NCBI GenBank assembly: GCA_012515445.1
Contig: JAAYYI010000055.1
Coordinates: 56,238-120,237, forward strand
From: Candidatus Bathyarchaeota archaeon
Lineage (GTDB): Archaea; Thermoproteota; Bathyarchaeia; Bathyarchaeales; Bathycorpusculaceae
Length of the DNA: 64,000 bases
Reading direction: 5' to 3'
The notes beneath the pieces are model-generated. The model searched no databases, had not been told where the DNA came from, and saw nothing but the letters and a program-made list of their open reading frames with translations. Position numbers and translations under genes: made by a program. Positions 3,750-46,370 of this stretch are shown one piece after another (the stretch's first letter is position 1; every line of letters begins with the position of its first letter).

Positions 3750-4286
3750 TTAGAGGTAGCTTTTAAGCTGTGGGAAAATGCGGTGTATAGCGTGCATGAC
3801 TGGCACTGCTATTATTAACCCGACGACCATTTGCACGATGTTAATAGGTACTTCAGCAAGGGCTTGTGCTAACGGGTAACCGGGGACGATCAGCTCGTAT
3901 ATGAAGTAGCCTAAAACCATCTCTAACCCTCCAACTATGATTGCTATGGAGGCGCAGACAGTGGTATTCTTGATGTGCTTCTGTAATTTCAAGAATAGGA
4001 ATCCAACTATTGCCCCTTCGAATCCTTTGATAATGAGTGTACCTGGGGCGAATATTCCGTAGCCCAAAAGCAAATCCGCTAGGCTGGCTCCTGCTCCTGC
4101 GATGGCGCCAACGAAGGGACCGAAGAGGAGGGCGGCGATGTAGATGATTGTCTCGCCTAGGTTGAAGTATCCGTTTGTAGCGGGGATGGGTATGACGAAG
4201 GTTAGGGTGGCGGCTGCAACGAGTGCGGCGAAGACTGCTGCGAGTGCGATTTTTAGGGCTGCTTGTTTTTTCATATACCTCGCCAA
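3750..4286 (-). CDS. ECF transporter substrate-binding (S) component
   Basis: A 178-residue integral membrane protein with about six helices. The block GYFNLGETIIYIAALLFGP followed by GAIAGAGASLADLLLGY and FAPGTLIIKGFEG is characteristic of S components of energy-coupling factor vitamin transporters, in which the S unit captures substrate and joins a shared ATPase and T unit. The shared module is not in this window. Substrate cannot be read from the sequence. The downstream AIR-synthase-like gene follows closely in the same direction and may be metabolically linked. No riboswitch is visible in the 122-base upstream interval. Confidence 0.85.
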   Translation of the reverse strand: MARYMKKQAALKIALAAVFAALVAAATLTFVIPIPATNGYFNLGETIIYIAALLFGPFVGAIAGAGASLADLLLGYGIFAPGTLIIKGFEGAIVGFLFLKLQKHIKNTTVCASIAIIVGGLEMVLGYFIYELIVPGYPLAQALAEVPINIVQMVVGLIIAVPVMHAIHRIFPQLKSYL

Positions 4287-35740: not shown

Positions 35741-38272
35741 ATGAATACTAGAAAAAATCTTGTATGGGCACTAGTCGCTATCCTTGCAATATCAATCGTA
35801 GTATCATTACCTCTGATAAGCATTGAAGTAGACGCAGCAGTAACACAGAAGACCTATGCAATTTCTGACGCTATCCCTCGCACAGTCGGAATGGGCGAGC
35901 AAGTTTTGCTCAAATGCGGTATCACTGAAGCATTAGCATCACAAGCATACGGATGGACCGGTATCACAATAACCGTCGTTAAACCAGACGGCGCAACCCA
36001 GACACTTGGACCATTCACCACTGACTCTACTGGCTCAACCTACACACTCTATACACCAGACCAAATGGGTGTATACAACATTACAACTAATTTCCCACAG
36101 CAGGAAATGCCAGTAAACACCATGGCAGTTGAAAGAGGCGCAATGATCGCTAAAGGCACCATTATGCTAGCAAGCACAGAAAAAAGCTCCTTCACCGTAA
36201 CCCAAGAGGCATCGCCACAGTATCCGGGTCATGCTCTGCCAACTGAGTATTGGAGTCGTCCAATCGACCCACAGCTCAGAGAATGGTACAGCGTCTCAGG
36301 CAACTGGGTAGCAAGACCAGATAACTCCGTTGTAGAATATAATGACAATGCACCGGACACAGCACACGTACTATGGGCTAATCCATTGACAACTGGCGGT
36401 ATGGCTGGCGGCTTAATCGCTGGTGTACCTGTTGCATCAGAAACAGGCGACGCATATGAAGGCAAATTCCCAGGCTCAGTTATACTGAACGGCGTACTAT
36501 ACTACCAAAGAACAGACACTAGAAGGGAAACAGCACCGGCAATTATGGCAATCGACTTACACACAGGCGAAGAATGGATGTTCAGAAACAACACCGTTCT
36601 ATCCTTCGGCCAAGTATTCTACTTTGACAGCTACAACTTCGACGGCGTATTCACATACGTCTGGTCAGTCTCTGGCAGCACTTGGACAGCATATGATCCA
36701 TTCACCGGCAACCAACAGATGCAAATCACCAACGTACCCTCCGGCACAAGAGTCTACGGGCCACACGGCGAAATCTTGATCTACCAAATTAACTATAACG
36801 CAGGCTGGATGGCACTCTGGAACTCAACAGATGCAGGTCTACAAAACGCAGTTATCGGAACACCTGACTATGGCAGCTGGGGAAACACTGCACACGGAAC
36901 ATCACTGCAGAACAAGGGACTAAACGGCACCAACCCACGATGCTACACATGGAACGTTACAATACCCAAGGGCTTATCGGCAACTGGAACAAAAATCTAT
37001 GTTGATGACAGAGTAGTTGGCTTATTTGTCAATCAAAGCAGAGTACGCGTTTGGGCACTTAACACTGCAAACCTGAACTCAGCATCTACACAGGCATCAG
37101 TACTCTATGACCAATCGTGGACTCCACCATCAGAATGGATAGAGGGCACAAACACAATGGCATACACAGGTGCATCCAACTGGGTAACAGACCCAACATA
37201 CGGTGACGGTGTTATTGCAGTATGGGATAAAGAACTAAGAACCCACTACGGCTTTAGCGTAACCACCGGAAAATACCTCTGGGAAACTGACTCAGAACAC
37301 TACCTCGACTCTTACGGTTGGGGCTCTATGGAGCACACTTGGTACTTTGCCTATGGCAAACTGTTCTCTATCGGTGTCGGCGGTATTCTATATGCCTATG
37401 ACCTAAAGACAGGCAACACTGAATGGACTTACGCCCTCAACGATGCGTACGGCGAGCCAATCACCGGCGAAAACTGGTGGGGATGGATCGACCTAATCGC
37501 TGACGGCAAAGTCTACGTTGGCACACTTGAGCACTCAGCAGAAAACCCGCTACCAAGAGGAGCACCATACGCTGCAGTCAACGCATCTAACGGCGCAGAA
37601 ATCTGGCGAGTCAACGGCATGTTCCGAGAAACCAGATGGGGCGGAAACGGCATCATCGGAGACAGCATCATCGCAACCATGGACACCTACGACCAACGCG
37701 TCTACGCAATCGGAAAAGGACCCTCACAAACAACAGTTTCAGCACCTGACCTAGCAGTAAACGGCGGCGACCCAGTACTAATCACTGGATCAGTAATCGA
37801 CATCTCACCAGGCACAGCAACAGCAGAAATCAAAATGCGCTTCCCCAACGGAGTACCAGCAGTATCTGATCCAAGCCAAAGCCAATGGATGCTATACGTC
37901 TACAAACAATTCGAATGCCCAACCAACGCAACCGGAGTAGAAGTAATCCTATCCGTAATCGACGCAAACGGCAACTACAGAGCAATCGGTACAACAACCG
38001 CTGACATAAACGGCAAATTCAGCTATGCATGGCAACCAGACATAGCCGGTAAATACACAGTATTCGCAACCTTCGCAGGATCAGACGCATACTACAGCTC
38101 AACAGGCCAAGACGCATTCCTAGTCAAAGAAGCTCCAGCAGCAACCACAGAGCCAACAGCGCAACCACAATCAATCACTGACGCCTACTTTGTACCAGCA
38201 GTCGCAGTCATACTAGTCGTACTAGTCGTCGGCATCGGCTTAATCCTGATGGCGCTACGCAAAAAACCATAA
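35741..38272 (+). CDS. large membrane-anchored surface protein with PQQ-type beta-propeller repeats
   Basis: 843 residues. An N-terminal hydrophobic segment (VWALVAILAISIVVSLPLISI) is a Sec signal, and a C-terminal helix (FVPAVAVILVVLVVGIGLILMAL) followed by RKKP anchors the protein. The extracellular part contains repeats such as DLHTGEEWMFRNNT, VTTGKYLWET, DLKTGNTEWTY and VNASNGAEIWRVN, the W-motif blades of PQQ/quinoprotein beta-propellers. An Ig-like domain (GGDPVLITGSVIDISPGTATAEIKM) precedes the anchor. No heme or quinone ligands stand out, so a structural or binding role is likelier than dehydrogenase activity. A T-rich terminator follows. Confidence 0.8.
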   Translation: MNTRKNLVWALVAILAISIVVSLPLISIEVDAAVTQKTYAISDAIPRTVGMGEQVLLKCGITEALASQAYGWTGITITVVKPDGATQTLGPFTTDSTGSTYTLYTPDQMGVYNITTNFPQQEMPVNTMAVERGAMIAKGTIMLASTEKSSFTVTQEASPQYPGHALPTEYWSRPIDPQLREWYSVSGNWVARPDNSVVEYNDNAPDTAHVLWANPLTTGGMAGGLIAGVPVASETGDAYEGKFPGSVILNGVLYYQRTDTRRETAPAIMAIDLHTGEEWMFRNNTVLSFGQVFYFDSYNFDGVFTYVWSVSGSTWTAYDPFTGNQQMQITNVPSGTRVYGPHGEILIYQINYNAGWMALWNSTDAGLQNAVIGTPDYGSWGNTAHGTSLQNKGLNGTNPRCYTWNVTIPKGLSATGTKIYVDDRVVGLFVNQSRVRVWALNTANLNSASTQASVLYDQSWTPPSEWIEGTNTMAYTGASNWVTDPTYGDGVIAVWDKELRTHYGFSVTTGKYLWETDSEHYLDSYGWGSMEHTWYFAYGKLFSIGVGGILYAYDLKTGNTEWTYALNDAYGEPITGENWWGWIDLIADGKVYVGTLEHSAENPLPRGAPYAAVNASNGAEIWRVNGMFRETRWGGNGIIGDSIIATMDTYDQRVYAIGKGPSQTTVSAPDLAVNGGDPVLITGSVIDISPGTATAEIKMRFPNGVPAVSDPSQSQWMLYVYKQFECPTNATGVEVILSVIDANGNYRAIGTTTADINGKFSYAWQPDIAGKYTVFATFAGSDAYYSSTGQDAFLVKEAPAATTEPTAQPQSITDAYFVPAVAVILVVLVVGIGLILMALRKKP

Positions 38273-43293: not shown

Positions 43294-43626
43294 TTTCTCA
43301 GCTCAAGTAGAAGGTTTGGAGACGAAATTATTTAAGGTATATGTAGCAGCCGAGTTCTCTTCTTCTTTTAAGTACACTGGGTTATCTATAGCTTTTTGCC
43401 TATGTGCTCTATTTACATCCTAATATCCGAACTATGCATAACACCTATAGAGGGGGTACCTGCGCCTTTTACCGCTTAATATAGGCGTAGGAAGGTACCT
43501 TGAGAGCAACAAACGCCTATTCAGAAATCGTAGGTATCTTAGTTGATTTTAAAGTTGTATTATTAGTACACAACATCTATAACCAATTTTGGGCTAAGTC
43601 GTTGCTGGTATTTAGGAAGAAACCAC
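43294..43626. promoter_or_regulatory. 333-base intergenic region with GGTACC inverted repeat
   Basis: Between divergent cysS and the first Cache-like gene. GGTACCTGCGCCT (43455-43467) and AGGCG..GGTACC (43483-43499) form an imperfect inverted repeat with two copies of the palindrome GGTACC. A TATA-like ttatttaagg near 43328-43338 could serve either side. I see no coding sequence in this interval. Function inferred as promoter or operator for the Cache locus. Confidence 0.4.
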
Positions 43627-44457
43627 ATGAACCCCAAATTAGTCGTTACCGTTTTAGCAGTGGCATTAATCATCTCGGCAGCCGCCAACATCTACATCGG
43701 CGTGCAAACCTTCACGGTAAGCGTCGGAGGAGATCCATACAAGACCCGAGTAGACATGACCTCCGTGCTTTCAGAGGTTCAAGCTAAAGTAGACGAAGAA
43801 CTAACATGCATTGGGCAAAGCCTAATCTACGCCGCCGAGCAGCTTAGCAGCGCAGGCTTAACGGGTGCACAGGTAGACGTAATCCTATCCGCGTTAGCCG
43901 CCAATAGCAGCTACATAATCGACGCTGGAACACAGGACATGAACTGCGTAATGGCTGCAATTCAGCCTTCAACCTACAGTGGTTCAATCGGCAAAAACGT
44001 CGGTGAACAGAAATGGCTAAACACTAACCCAGACGGCGCAATCACACCCACTATGACGCCAGTAATCCCGCTAATCGAGGACCTAACGGGCGTCGCCATG
44101 GCTGCACCAGTCTTTAACAGTAACAAGCAGCAGATTGGAACCGTCAGCGTCGTCTTCAACCCGCAGGAACTTCTCTCTGACGCAATCACCGCAGTAACAA
44201 CCGACCCACAGTATGAATTCACCGCCATACAAACCAACGGCGCAATACTATTCGACTCCATGGGCGCAGAAGTCGGCACAAACCTCTTTGATGAAACCAG
44301 CAACACAGAGATCCTAACTGTAGGTAGCAAAATTGCGCAGACTTCATCGGGTTACAGCACATACAACATAAGCGAAAGCCTCCATAAGCAGTGTTACTGG
44401 ACCACCATCAGCCAATACAGCCAAGATTGGCGACTGATAATCCACCACACAATCTAA
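43627..44457 (+). CDS. membrane-anchored Cache-like extracytoplasmic sensor, copy 1
   Basis: 276 residues. One N-terminal helix (LVVTVLAVALIISAAANIYIGV) anchors the protein with the rest outside. The remainder looks like a double Cache domain: a helical lead SEVQAKVDEELTCIGQSLIYAAEQL, MAAPVFNSNKQQIGTVSVVFNPQELL, then FTAIQTNGAILFDSMGAEVGTNLFDE, the membrane-proximal Cache signature, and YWTTISQYSQDWRLIIHH. No cytoplasmic histidine kinase, HAMP or MCP domain follows. It must therefore act through a partner or as an extracellular ligand binder. First of three tandem paralogues. Confidence 0.75.
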   Translation: MNPKLVVTVLAVALIISAAANIYIGVQTFTVSVGGDPYKTRVDMTSVLSEVQAKVDEELTCIGQSLIYAAEQLSSAGLTGAQVDVILSALAANSSYIIDAGTQDMNCVMAAIQPSTYSGSIGKNVGEQKWLNTNPDGAITPTMTPVIPLIEDLTGVAMAAPVFNSNKQQIGTVSVVFNPQELLSDAITAVTTDPQYEFTAIQTNGAILFDSMGAEVGTNLFDETSNTEILTVGSKIAQTSSGYSTYNISESLHKQCYWTTISQYSQDWRLIIHHTI

Positions 44458-44460
44458 CCA

Positions 44461-44475
44461 TCTTTTTCCTTTTTG
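44461..44475 (+). terminator. T-rich tract between Cache genes 1 and 2
   Basis: tctttttcctttttg follows the stop; it may separate the two transcripts. Confidence 0.4.
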
Positions 44476-44535
44476 CTTTACAGATAAACCTATTTTTCAC
44501 GGCTAACTTTATGCTGAGCTGAGGAAAAGTATACA

Positions 44536-45399
44536 GTGAATAAAACCAAGACGTCAGCAATCATATTGGCAGTACTTGTAGTAGTCTCTTTATCTGTGAA
44601 CGTTTACCTTGCCAGCCAAAACAGTACACTTAACAGTGAAAAAAGCGCCTACACGGCTAAAGTTGACATGGTTGCCACACTTGCAGAGGCGCAAACCAGC
44701 ACCGACTCAGAGCTTCAGCGCATCGGCGAAAGCCTCATCTACGCCTCAAAGCAGCTCTCAACCTCTGGAATCAGCGGCAGCCAAGCCAACGAAATCCTAA
44801 ACGCCTTAGCCTCAAACAGCACCTACATAATCAACGCCGCAACCGAAAACTTAGACAACGCCATCGTGGCTGCAGCGCCAGCTGATTGGAGCTACATTAT
44901 AGGCAGAAATGTCGGCGAACAAACCCATCTTAACCCAAACCCGCATGGAGAAATTACGCCCGTGATGACTCCTCTTGTTCCCGTTCAATCTGACATGATG
45001 GCAAACATTATGGCAGCTCCAGTCTTTGATGGCGACAGAGAACTCATCGGTTACATTAGCGTAATTTTTGACCCAGCAAGACTTCTAAACGACACCATAT
45101 CTGCCGCGTTAGCGGGTACATCTTATACAACGACTGTCATGCAGGTCGACGGCTTAATGATCTACGACACTGACCAACTGCAGCAGTACAAAAATATGTT
45201 CACCGATCCAGCATACGCTAACTACACCCAGCTAATACTGCTCGGACGCCATGTATCCCAGTACAGTTCAGGCTATGGGACATACCAATTCACCATAGAC
45301 GCAGCCTCTCCGATAATTATCAACAAGGAATGCTACTGGACTACCGTTTCTGCTTATGGGCAGCAATGGCGCATAGCACTCCAGCACTCAATAAGCTAA
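44536..45399 (+). CDS. membrane-anchored Cache-like extracytoplasmic sensor, copy 2
   Basis: 287 residues. Same architecture as its neighbours: helix SAIILAVLVVVSLSVNVYLA, then DSELQRIGESLIYASKQLSTSGISGSQANEIL, MAAPVFDGDRELIGYISVIFDPARLL, VMQVDGLMIYDTDQLQQYKN, SGYGTYQF and ECYWTTVSAYGQQWRIALQH. It shares the conserved TPLVP proline pair after NPHGEITPVMTP. The proximal Cache loop differs from copy 1, so ligand specificity may differ. The start is a GTG following GAGGAAAAG. Confidence 0.75.
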   Translation: MNKTKTSAIILAVLVVVSLSVNVYLASQNSTLNSEKSAYTAKVDMVATLAEAQTSTDSELQRIGESLIYASKQLSTSGISGSQANEILNALASNSTYIINAATENLDNAIVAAAPADWSYIIGRNVGEQTHLNPNPHGEITPVMTPLVPVQSDMMANIMAAPVFDGDRELIGYISVIFDPARLLNDTISAALAGTSYTTTVMQVDGLMIYDTDQLQQYKNMFTDPAYANYTQLILLGRHVSQYSSGYGTYQFTIDAASPIIINKECYWTTVSAYGQQWRIALQHSIS

Positions 45400-45511
45400 G
45401 AATCTAAAATCTACATCAATAGCCTGTTTATTTCAAACGTTTATTGGTAAACAGCAATGCCTATAACCAGTTCAGTAACAACTTGTATCTAACATAGGAA
45501 GATATGTTGAA

Positions 45512-46342
45512 ATGAATAAGTCCAAATTAATCATAATATTCTTAGCAGTATTACTAATCGCATCCATAGGGGCAAACGTCTTCTTCGCAGGCTTCACAAT
45601 AGCACCGAACAGCAATGACCAAACCAAGCTTGGAATGGTTTCAGCTCTCTCACAGGTTCAAGTCAACATAGACAGGGAACTGCAACGGATTGGCTGCAGC
45701 CTTGCCTATGCTTCAGAACAACTGACTAACACAGGCTTAACCGGTGTGCAAGCAGACGCAATACTAAGCGCATTAGCTGCAAACAGCACCTTCATCATCG
45801 ACGCAGGAACAGAGGACCTGAACAACATAATGGTCGCCGTGCAGCCTCCATCATGCAGCAACGTACTTGGCCTCGACGTCGGCGAACAAACTTGGCTAAA
45901 CACTAACCCTCATGGTTCAATAAAACCTATGATGACTCCAGTTATACCGCTAGTTGAAGGCTCAGAAGGAATAGCAATGGCTGCTCCAATCTTCAACACA
46001 AACAAAGAAATGATCGGCACAGTCAGCGTTATCTTTAATCCACAGGAACTCGTCAGCGCGTGCATCGCACAAACAACAGAAGGCGACAAATACGAATTCG
46101 CAGTAATGCAAACCGATGGCTACTGCATATATGACTCTGAACCAGAATACCAAGGCATAAACCTTCTAACCAACACAACATTATCCGACTATAATCTAAT
46201 CATTAATTCAGTACGCCAAACCGCCGAATACATCTCCGGATACTACCTCTACGACTACGAAGGCACCAACTGGCAGCTTTACTGGACAACCATAAACGCT
46301 TTCGGCCAAGACTGGCGACTAAGCGTCCACCACTCGGCATAA
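45512..46342 (+). CDS. membrane-anchored Cache-like extracytoplasmic sensor, copy 3
   Basis: 276 residues. Helix LIIIFLAVLLIASIGANVFFAGF, then QVNIDRELQRIGCSLAYASEQL, DLNNIMVAVQPPSCSNVLGLDVGEQTWLNTNPHGSIKPMMTPVIPL, MAAPIFNTNKEMIGTVSVIFNPQEL, FAVMQTDGYCIYDSEPEYQGINLL and YWTTINAFGQDWRLSVHHS. Closest to copy 1 by length and motif spacing. Separated from copy 2 by 112 bases, so it may have its own promoter. Confidence 0.75.
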   Translation: MNKSKLIIIFLAVLLIASIGANVFFAGFTIAPNSNDQTKLGMVSALSQVQVNIDRELQRIGCSLAYASEQLTNTGLTGVQADAILSALAANSTFIIDAGTEDLNNIMVAVQPPSCSNVLGLDVGEQTWLNTNPHGSIKPMMTPVIPLVEGSEGIAMAAPIFNTNKEMIGTVSVIFNPQELVSACIAQTTEGDKYEFAVMQTDGYCIYDSEPEYQGINLLTNTTLSDYNLIINSVRQTAEYISGYYLYDYEGTNWQLYWTTINAFGQDWRLSVHHSA

Positions 46343-46350
46343 AACAACAA

Positions 46351-46370
46351 CTTTTTCTCTTTTTTCTTGT
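46351..46370 (+). terminator. T-rich terminator of the Cache locus
   Basis: ctttttctcttttttcttgt directly follows copy 3, before the convergent methylthiotransferase stop. Confidence 0.45.

Follow-up and report, generated by a model that had tools for sequence, protein, structure and literature searches.

Cache domains are the largest group of prokaryotic extracellular sensors, and they nearly always lie in one chain with an output domain. More than 90% of them are fused in this way (PMC12889525). The stretch of Bathyarchaeota DNA analysed here (64,000 nucleotides, hereafter the window) comes from contig C33 of a draft genome of 2.44 Mb. It carries three genes in a row, each of which appears to encode a membrane-anchored Cache ectodomain and nothing else. 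What, then, could an extracellular sensor domain do when its chain holds no output?

The genes themselves are well defined. It had been proposed that three paralogues stand here in tandem, and the open reading frame list indeed contains three intact frames, all on the forward strand, that together span exactly positions 43627–46342:

43627–44457, forward strand: dCache copy 1, ATG start, 276 aa, clade A (open reading frame, PF22309 at 76.2 bits, tree); N-terminal membrane anchor, long helix, distal then proximal Cache subdomain, stop.
44536–45399, forward strand: dCache copy 2, GTG start, 287 aa, clade A (open reading frame, PF22309 at 63.8 bits).
45512–46342, forward strand: dCache copy 3, ATG start, 276 aa, clade A (open reading frame, PF22309 at 76.7 bits); the modelled copy, with transmembrane helix 2–29, helix 34–74, distal subdomain about 91–190 and proximal subdomain about 191–276.

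The spacers of 78 and 112 bp between the copies are non-coding, and the genes on both flanks of the array lie on the opposite strand. Over their full length copies 1 and 2 share 41% identity, copies 1 and 3 51%, and copies 2 and 3 44%. Differences among the copies and their orthologues pile up at third codon positions (0.32/0.22/0.56 per codon position for copy 2 against the orthologue in genome G007), as expected of genes under purifying selection.

The Cache identity of these proteins is strongly supported by a family profile, a structural model and a fold comparison. All three copies exceed the cut-off of 27 bits for PF22309 (HK-GC-Chemotax_sensor); dCache_1 scores for copies 1 and 2 (17 and 21 bits) and a CHASE match fall below their cut-offs, and NCBIfam and PHROGs searches of the three copies returned nothing further. 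The AlphaFold2 model of copy 3, built with 21 relatives (pLDDT 88.7, pTM 0.81), contains the transmembrane helix, a 41-residue helix and two PAS-like alpha/beta subdomains. When this model was compared with the PDB by Foldseek, 5ERE ranked first (E 2.4e-19, query TM 0.70), followed by the dCache sensor domains of kinases and chemoreceptors, and the family profile matches the 5ERE protein, Dret_0059, at residues 323–560 (E 1.4e-64). Structure prediction, the check suggested along with the original prediction, thus returned a dCache fold and no other, and the modelled fold and the sequence together confirm the window copies as members of the double-Cache superfamily.

The absence of an output domain is equally clear. 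In each copy a short basic tail precedes a single hydrophobic segment at the N-terminus, and the rest of the chain never exceeds 1.6 on the Kyte-Doolittle scale; the single membrane helix per protein noticed at the outset is therefore the sole hydrophobic segment in all three copies. Segment and tail together predict an N-in/C-out topology with the ectodomain outside the cell. The final strand of the copy 3 model stops at residue 275 of 276, and in all intact members of the family the chain likewise stops at the last Cache strand, with a single membrane segment and no cytoplasmic domain. No intact family member thus joins a second membrane helix and a cytoplasmic output in one chain, as a Cache-type receptor does. 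The earlier observation that no intracellular part follows also stands, the dCache ending at a natural stop before the short spacers. We rejected the idea of interrupted longer receptors, because each frame closes with the last Cache strand and the downstream sequence holds nothing membrane-like.

The copies are likely transcribed separately, judging from putative promoter and terminator elements read from the sequence:

43577–43584, forward strand: CTATAACC, putative TATA-box-like element about 50 bp before copy 1.
44462–44475, forward strand: T-rich tract that follows copy 1, perhaps an archaeal terminator.
45461–45468, forward strand: CTATAACC, putative TATA-box-like element about 50 bp before copy 3.
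46352–46368, forward strand: T-rich tract after copy 3, possible archaeal terminator.

The stretches upstream of copies 1 and 3 and of the G025 and G015 orthologues have this element in common, in sequence and in position, and resemble one another, with alignment scores for the pairs that were reached by 0–3 of 100 shuffles; the stretch upstream of copy 2 has no clear match to those bearing CTATAACC.

Cache proteins without an output domain are unusual, but they are not unique, and since stand-alone forms exist elsewhere the kind is already known. Its precedents are Dret_0059, dCache_1AM and sCache_heme. Dret_0059 of Desulfohalobium retbaense (PDB 5ERE), through which alone the bacterial side was covered here, has the same kind of dCache at residues 323–560 in a solved chain without an output domain. 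It carries about 320 additional residues before the dCache, whereas the window proteins (276–287 aa) consist of anchor and dCache only. We take its N-terminal half to be a solute-binding domain with ketoleucine bound, and the authors of the structure were reportedly undecided between signalling and transport. Residues 322–562 have been tabulated as a cytosine-binding dCache (PMC8694187). dCache_1AM, from Actinobacteria and others, and sCache_heme resemble the window copies in having no output in the chain (PMC10104139, PMC12889525). The dCache_1AM example is cytoplasmic and encoded beside a transcription factor, whereas the window copies are anchored; sCache_heme is a single Cache with a c-type heme, whereas the window copies are double Caches without CXXCH whose relatives are linked to LYT genes. 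The dCache histidine kinases and chemoreceptors (PF22309/PF02743) share with the window copies the fold, an extracytoplasmic placement (predicted for the window copies) and the N-terminal membrane helix running into a long helix, but they possess the second membrane helix, HAMP and output domain that the window copies lack.

The source genome encodes six PF22309 proteins, all single-domain: three in the window, two in tandem on contig C34 and one on C83. Its sole dCache_1 match to exceed the cut-off is a receptor of ordinary appearance on C16, 708 aa long, with what look like HAMP and a SpoIIE-type phosphatase in its C-terminal part (domains named by reading the sequence). Within the genus the family is present in 9 of 32 genomes (the source genome and 31 others); none of 29 further genomes drawn from the same family and order has it. 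When 398 genomes of the phylum were searched with a profile, one carrier was added, G275 of a sister genus. The remaining matches were distant (E 1e-9 to 1e-11) and belonged to other archaeal families, and the three examined were dCache histidine kinases. Every intact close relative is about 280 aa long and unfused, so the result that would have refuted the original proposal, a conserved cytoplasmic partner fused in other genomes, did not turn up; fused forms occur among the distant matches only. A separate observation concerns the protein encoded in the window at 35741–38272 on the forward strand, which is large, secreted and anchored to the membrane at its C-terminus, and looks propeller-like by eye; its family recurs near dCache relatives (L039, L042, L045) and beside the phosphatase-like receptor on C16.

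Two clades can be distinguished. Clade A, to which the window copies belong, occupies a site downstream of a convergent cysteinyl-tRNA synthetase-like gene (cysS), usually with a convergent MiaB/MtaB-like gene on the right (both named by reading the sequence); the right flank in G025 is unlike the others. This site holds one copy in G007, G015 and G021, two in G025 and three in the window. In the tree, the window copies fall into one clade (100/100) together with the clade-A genes of other genomes and G275_B2, a gene located within a dCache-dCache-LYT operon of the sister genus (L118). Copy 2 groups with the single copies of G007, G015 and G021 and the first G025 copy (100/98). Copies 1 and 3 join the second G025 copy (93/94), which places the first duplication before the split of these genomes. 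Because a clade-A gene lies inside the G275 operon, the array is best read as relocated and duplicated descendants of an operon gene. In the simplest history, a gene of the operon would have given rise to clade A by moving to the cysS site and duplicating at that location, although the tree is unrooted and is also compatible with a move in the reverse direction.

Some relatives are degraded:

L036, 9361–10185: broken relative.
L042, 9463–10305: broken relative.
L049, 586–1463: broken relative.
L050, 9635–9844: broken relative.

These carry nonsense codons or a frameshift, or are reduced to a remnant. The operon copy of G021 is interrupted by an early TGA and is also frameshifted, G006 retains a remnant, the first G025 copy has a TGA at a conserved Trp near the C-terminus, and G018 has a TGA close to the C-terminus. 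Recoding at the in-frame TGA codons of G025, G018 and G021 was considered and set aside, since their positions and the frameshift look like nonsense or pseudogene changes. An origin in phages or plasmids was likewise rejected: there was no PHROGs match and no relative in viral contigs or plasmids, and the Dret_0059 domain gave no more than weak matches (about 25% identity), to GGDEF-type sensors on enterobacterial plasmids. The broken relatives are a sign of birth-and-death turnover in the dCache family. Together with its patchy presence, they might suggest surface proteins in decay or under loose constraint, whether decoys or products of birth-and-death duplication, with no specific partner. 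We regard this as very improbable for the window, where all copies are intact at 41–51% identity, where change is biased to third positions, and where the distal subdomain is conserved in a clade-specific manner.

Clade B lies in an operon. Its order is a HAD hydrolase, a protein of 204–215 aa, an anchored ectodomain protein of 250 aa (present in most loci), one or two dCache genes and, last, a stand-alone LYT gene encoding a 5TM-5TMR_LYT domain (PF07694, E 1e-35 to 1e-39). At seven loci, six in the genus and one in the sister genus, a dCache gene lies 16–41 bp upstream of a co-directional LYT gene. In the genus, the genomes with strong stand-alone LYT proteins are precisely the six whose operon-type dCache gene is intact; G018, G021 and G006, in which a dCache copy is truncated, broken or a remnant, lack such proteins. 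A further LYT gene, unlinked to the operon, is present in four of the six, among them the source genome (on C56). The LYT proteins and the third operon protein of the source genome are encoded as follows:

L016, 175–837, reverse strand: stand-alone LYT on C34, without kinase, BtsS pyruvate-site residues kept.
L117, 7157–7768, reverse strand: stand-alone LYT on C56, without kinase, BtsS pyruvate-site residues kept.
L016, 2738–3487, reverse strand: third operon protein, the anchored 250 aa ectodomain; homologues at L040, L042, L044, L045, L118 and L150.

The C56 LYT gene is convergent with a gene for an NMT1-type solute-binding protein. Weak LYT matches across the genus (1e-4 to 1e-9) were set aside as probable ECF S-components, one tested example having fitted both families equally. 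The window holds a match of this weak kind at 3864–4262 on the reverse strand (207-codon frame, E 3.6e-4), probably also an ECF S-component. The third operon protein is 56–65% identical among its homologues and occurs in 6 of 398 genomes; dCache is present in five of these, and in G122, the sixth, the gene abuts the end of its contig. It had no Pfam match and no PDB relative, and structure prediction from five sequences gave a pLDDT of 35. The co-occurrence of these genes is not statistically independent evidence, since a single island that comes and goes as a unit would give an identical pattern. In other families LYT also occurs without dCache (G054, G218). LYT genes of another archaeal family (L147 7354–8184, forward strand; L148 6624–7454, reverse strand) encode a C-terminal coiled-coil-like tail and adjoin a MinD/ParA-like ATPase gene.

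The LYT protein is about 200 aa long and ends soon after its last membrane helix, with no His_kinase or HATPase domain. All 11 homologues keep N74-x-R76, R103 and C114, with S or A at position 117, and the spacings of 27, 11 and 3 are identical to those of R72, R99, C110 and S113 in BtsS, which form its pyruvate site (PMC10653868). The operon LYT therefore shares with the LytS-type receptors BtsS and YpdA the PF07694 domain, the NxR motif, the pyruvate-site Arg and Cys, mostly the Ser, and their spacing, but it has no kinase and is encoded beside a dCache gene, being a neighbour of the relatives and not of the window array. The fold of the LYT domain is that of S-components, which receptors share with ECF transporters; certain S-components carry out transport by themselves (PMC11109136). 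The source genome encodes no LytS-type kinase (PF06580) but has two CbiQ/EcfT proteins, so that sensing and uptake are both possible.

A solute-binding role in uptake is the main rival to a split receptor. The dCache proteins would then be analogues of solute-binding proteins, anchored nutrient catchers that feed an ABC or ECF permease, or LYT as a solitary S-component-like carrier, and would not signal at all. Besides the LYT fold and the CbiQ/EcfT proteins, this gains from the fact that neither dCache nor LYT carries a signalling domain, and from Dret_0059, the nearest solved relative, being annotated as an extracellular ligand-binding receptor and solved as a chain without output. We nevertheless consider it rather unlikely: the resources used here record no Cache domain as a transporter feeder, an ABC permease is not a constant neighbour (ABC-2 type genes occur in L045 and L118 only), and the LYT residues retained are those of the receptor site.

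Signalling through proteins elsewhere in the genome, independently of LYT, has also been weighed. HATPase_c matches the source genome 23 times above its cut-off, relatives at L040 and L046 have one or two PAS histidine kinases nearby, and dCache copies exist away from LYT genes, all of which would suit sensors that act through a histidine kinase without an ectodomain or another receptor. However, no kinase is a conserved neighbour of dCache genes, the dCache proteins offer almost no cytoplasmic residues and one membrane helix with which to contact a partner, and the MCPs of the genome look soluble; we judge such a route improbable. As the genome has no LytS-type kinase and two soluble-looking MCPs, neither type is an obvious direct partner, and a chemoreceptor partner was rejected on the same appearance of both MCPs. 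Their genes (L119 7089–8600, reverse strand; L120 6837–8366, forward strand) are each followed by a CheW-like gene, and chemotaxis in the source organism may rely on sensing inside the cell.

A further line of evidence comes from the distal subdomain, the usual ligand site in dCache proteins. Its identity is 31% between the clades and 56% and 61% within them, compared with 40% between and 47% and 56% within for the proximal subdomain. This excess distal divergence was reached in none of 10,000 column permutations, a test that ignores sequence kinship. Against Dret_0059, the distal subdomain is 35–46% identical in operon-type copies and 23–28% in window copies. Since the usual ligand site is where the clades diverge, the clade-A copies of the window seem to have an altered ligand preference.

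Our best explanation, held tentatively and at somewhat less than even confidence, is that the anchored dCache ectodomains act in trans with a membrane partner, most plausibly LYT, as a split receptor or uptake system. The window genes would descend from operon genes by relocation and tandem duplication; outside the cell, the distal Cache subdomain would capture a small molecule, upon which the ectodomain would act on its membrane partner, most plausibly one of the two stand-alone 5TM-5TMR_LYT proteins encoded on C34 and C56. The dCache would thus supply the outer half of a receptor, or of an uptake system, that is divided over several proteins. We infer the dCache-LYT partnership from gene order and co-occurrence, and on the same basis the partnered sensor has gained ground, through the LYT-adjacent relatives, among the stand-alone binder, decoy and partnered sensor that were first offered as roles; we also infer ligand binding by the window copies and any route of output. 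We prefer this split-system explanation because it accounts for the topology, the operon, the co-occurrence and the clade-specific ligand subdomain. It is favoured by the kinship of the dCache to Dret_0059, by the clade-A gene G275_B2 inside a dCache-LYT operon, by the retention of BtsS-site residues in 11 of 11 LYT proteins, and by the conservation of the distal subdomain within clades. Several facts count against it. The window array has no LYT gene next to it, and neither do the single copies C83, G007_C3, G016_C15 and G025_C21; G021 has an intact clade-A copy and no strong LYT detected in an assembly that is 85% complete; other families have stand-alone LYT proteins but no dCache, and co-occurrence among neighbours may simply reflect one island that comes and goes as a unit; and LYT itself has no output domain.

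A more specific version is possible but doubtful. An archaeal receptor or receptor-like transporter may be split into a dCache ectodomain, a kinase-free LytS-type domain with a 2-oxoacid (pyruvate) site and a third anchored ectodomain, with the duplicated and relocated dCache copies giving the shared partner alternative specificities. A limited search of the open-access literature found no report of a dCache paired with an output-less LytS-type domain. What sets the system apart is that a Cache ectodomain and a neighbouring membrane receptor domain are both without output, with repeated duplication and clade-specific change in the ligand subdomain. A concrete candidate partner, LYT, and a ligand class, 2-oxoacids for LYT, are now available. 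If the explanation is true, these uncultured archaea would make it possible to test whether extracellular sensing can be modular and act in trans, or whether a sensor fold has been converted to uptake.
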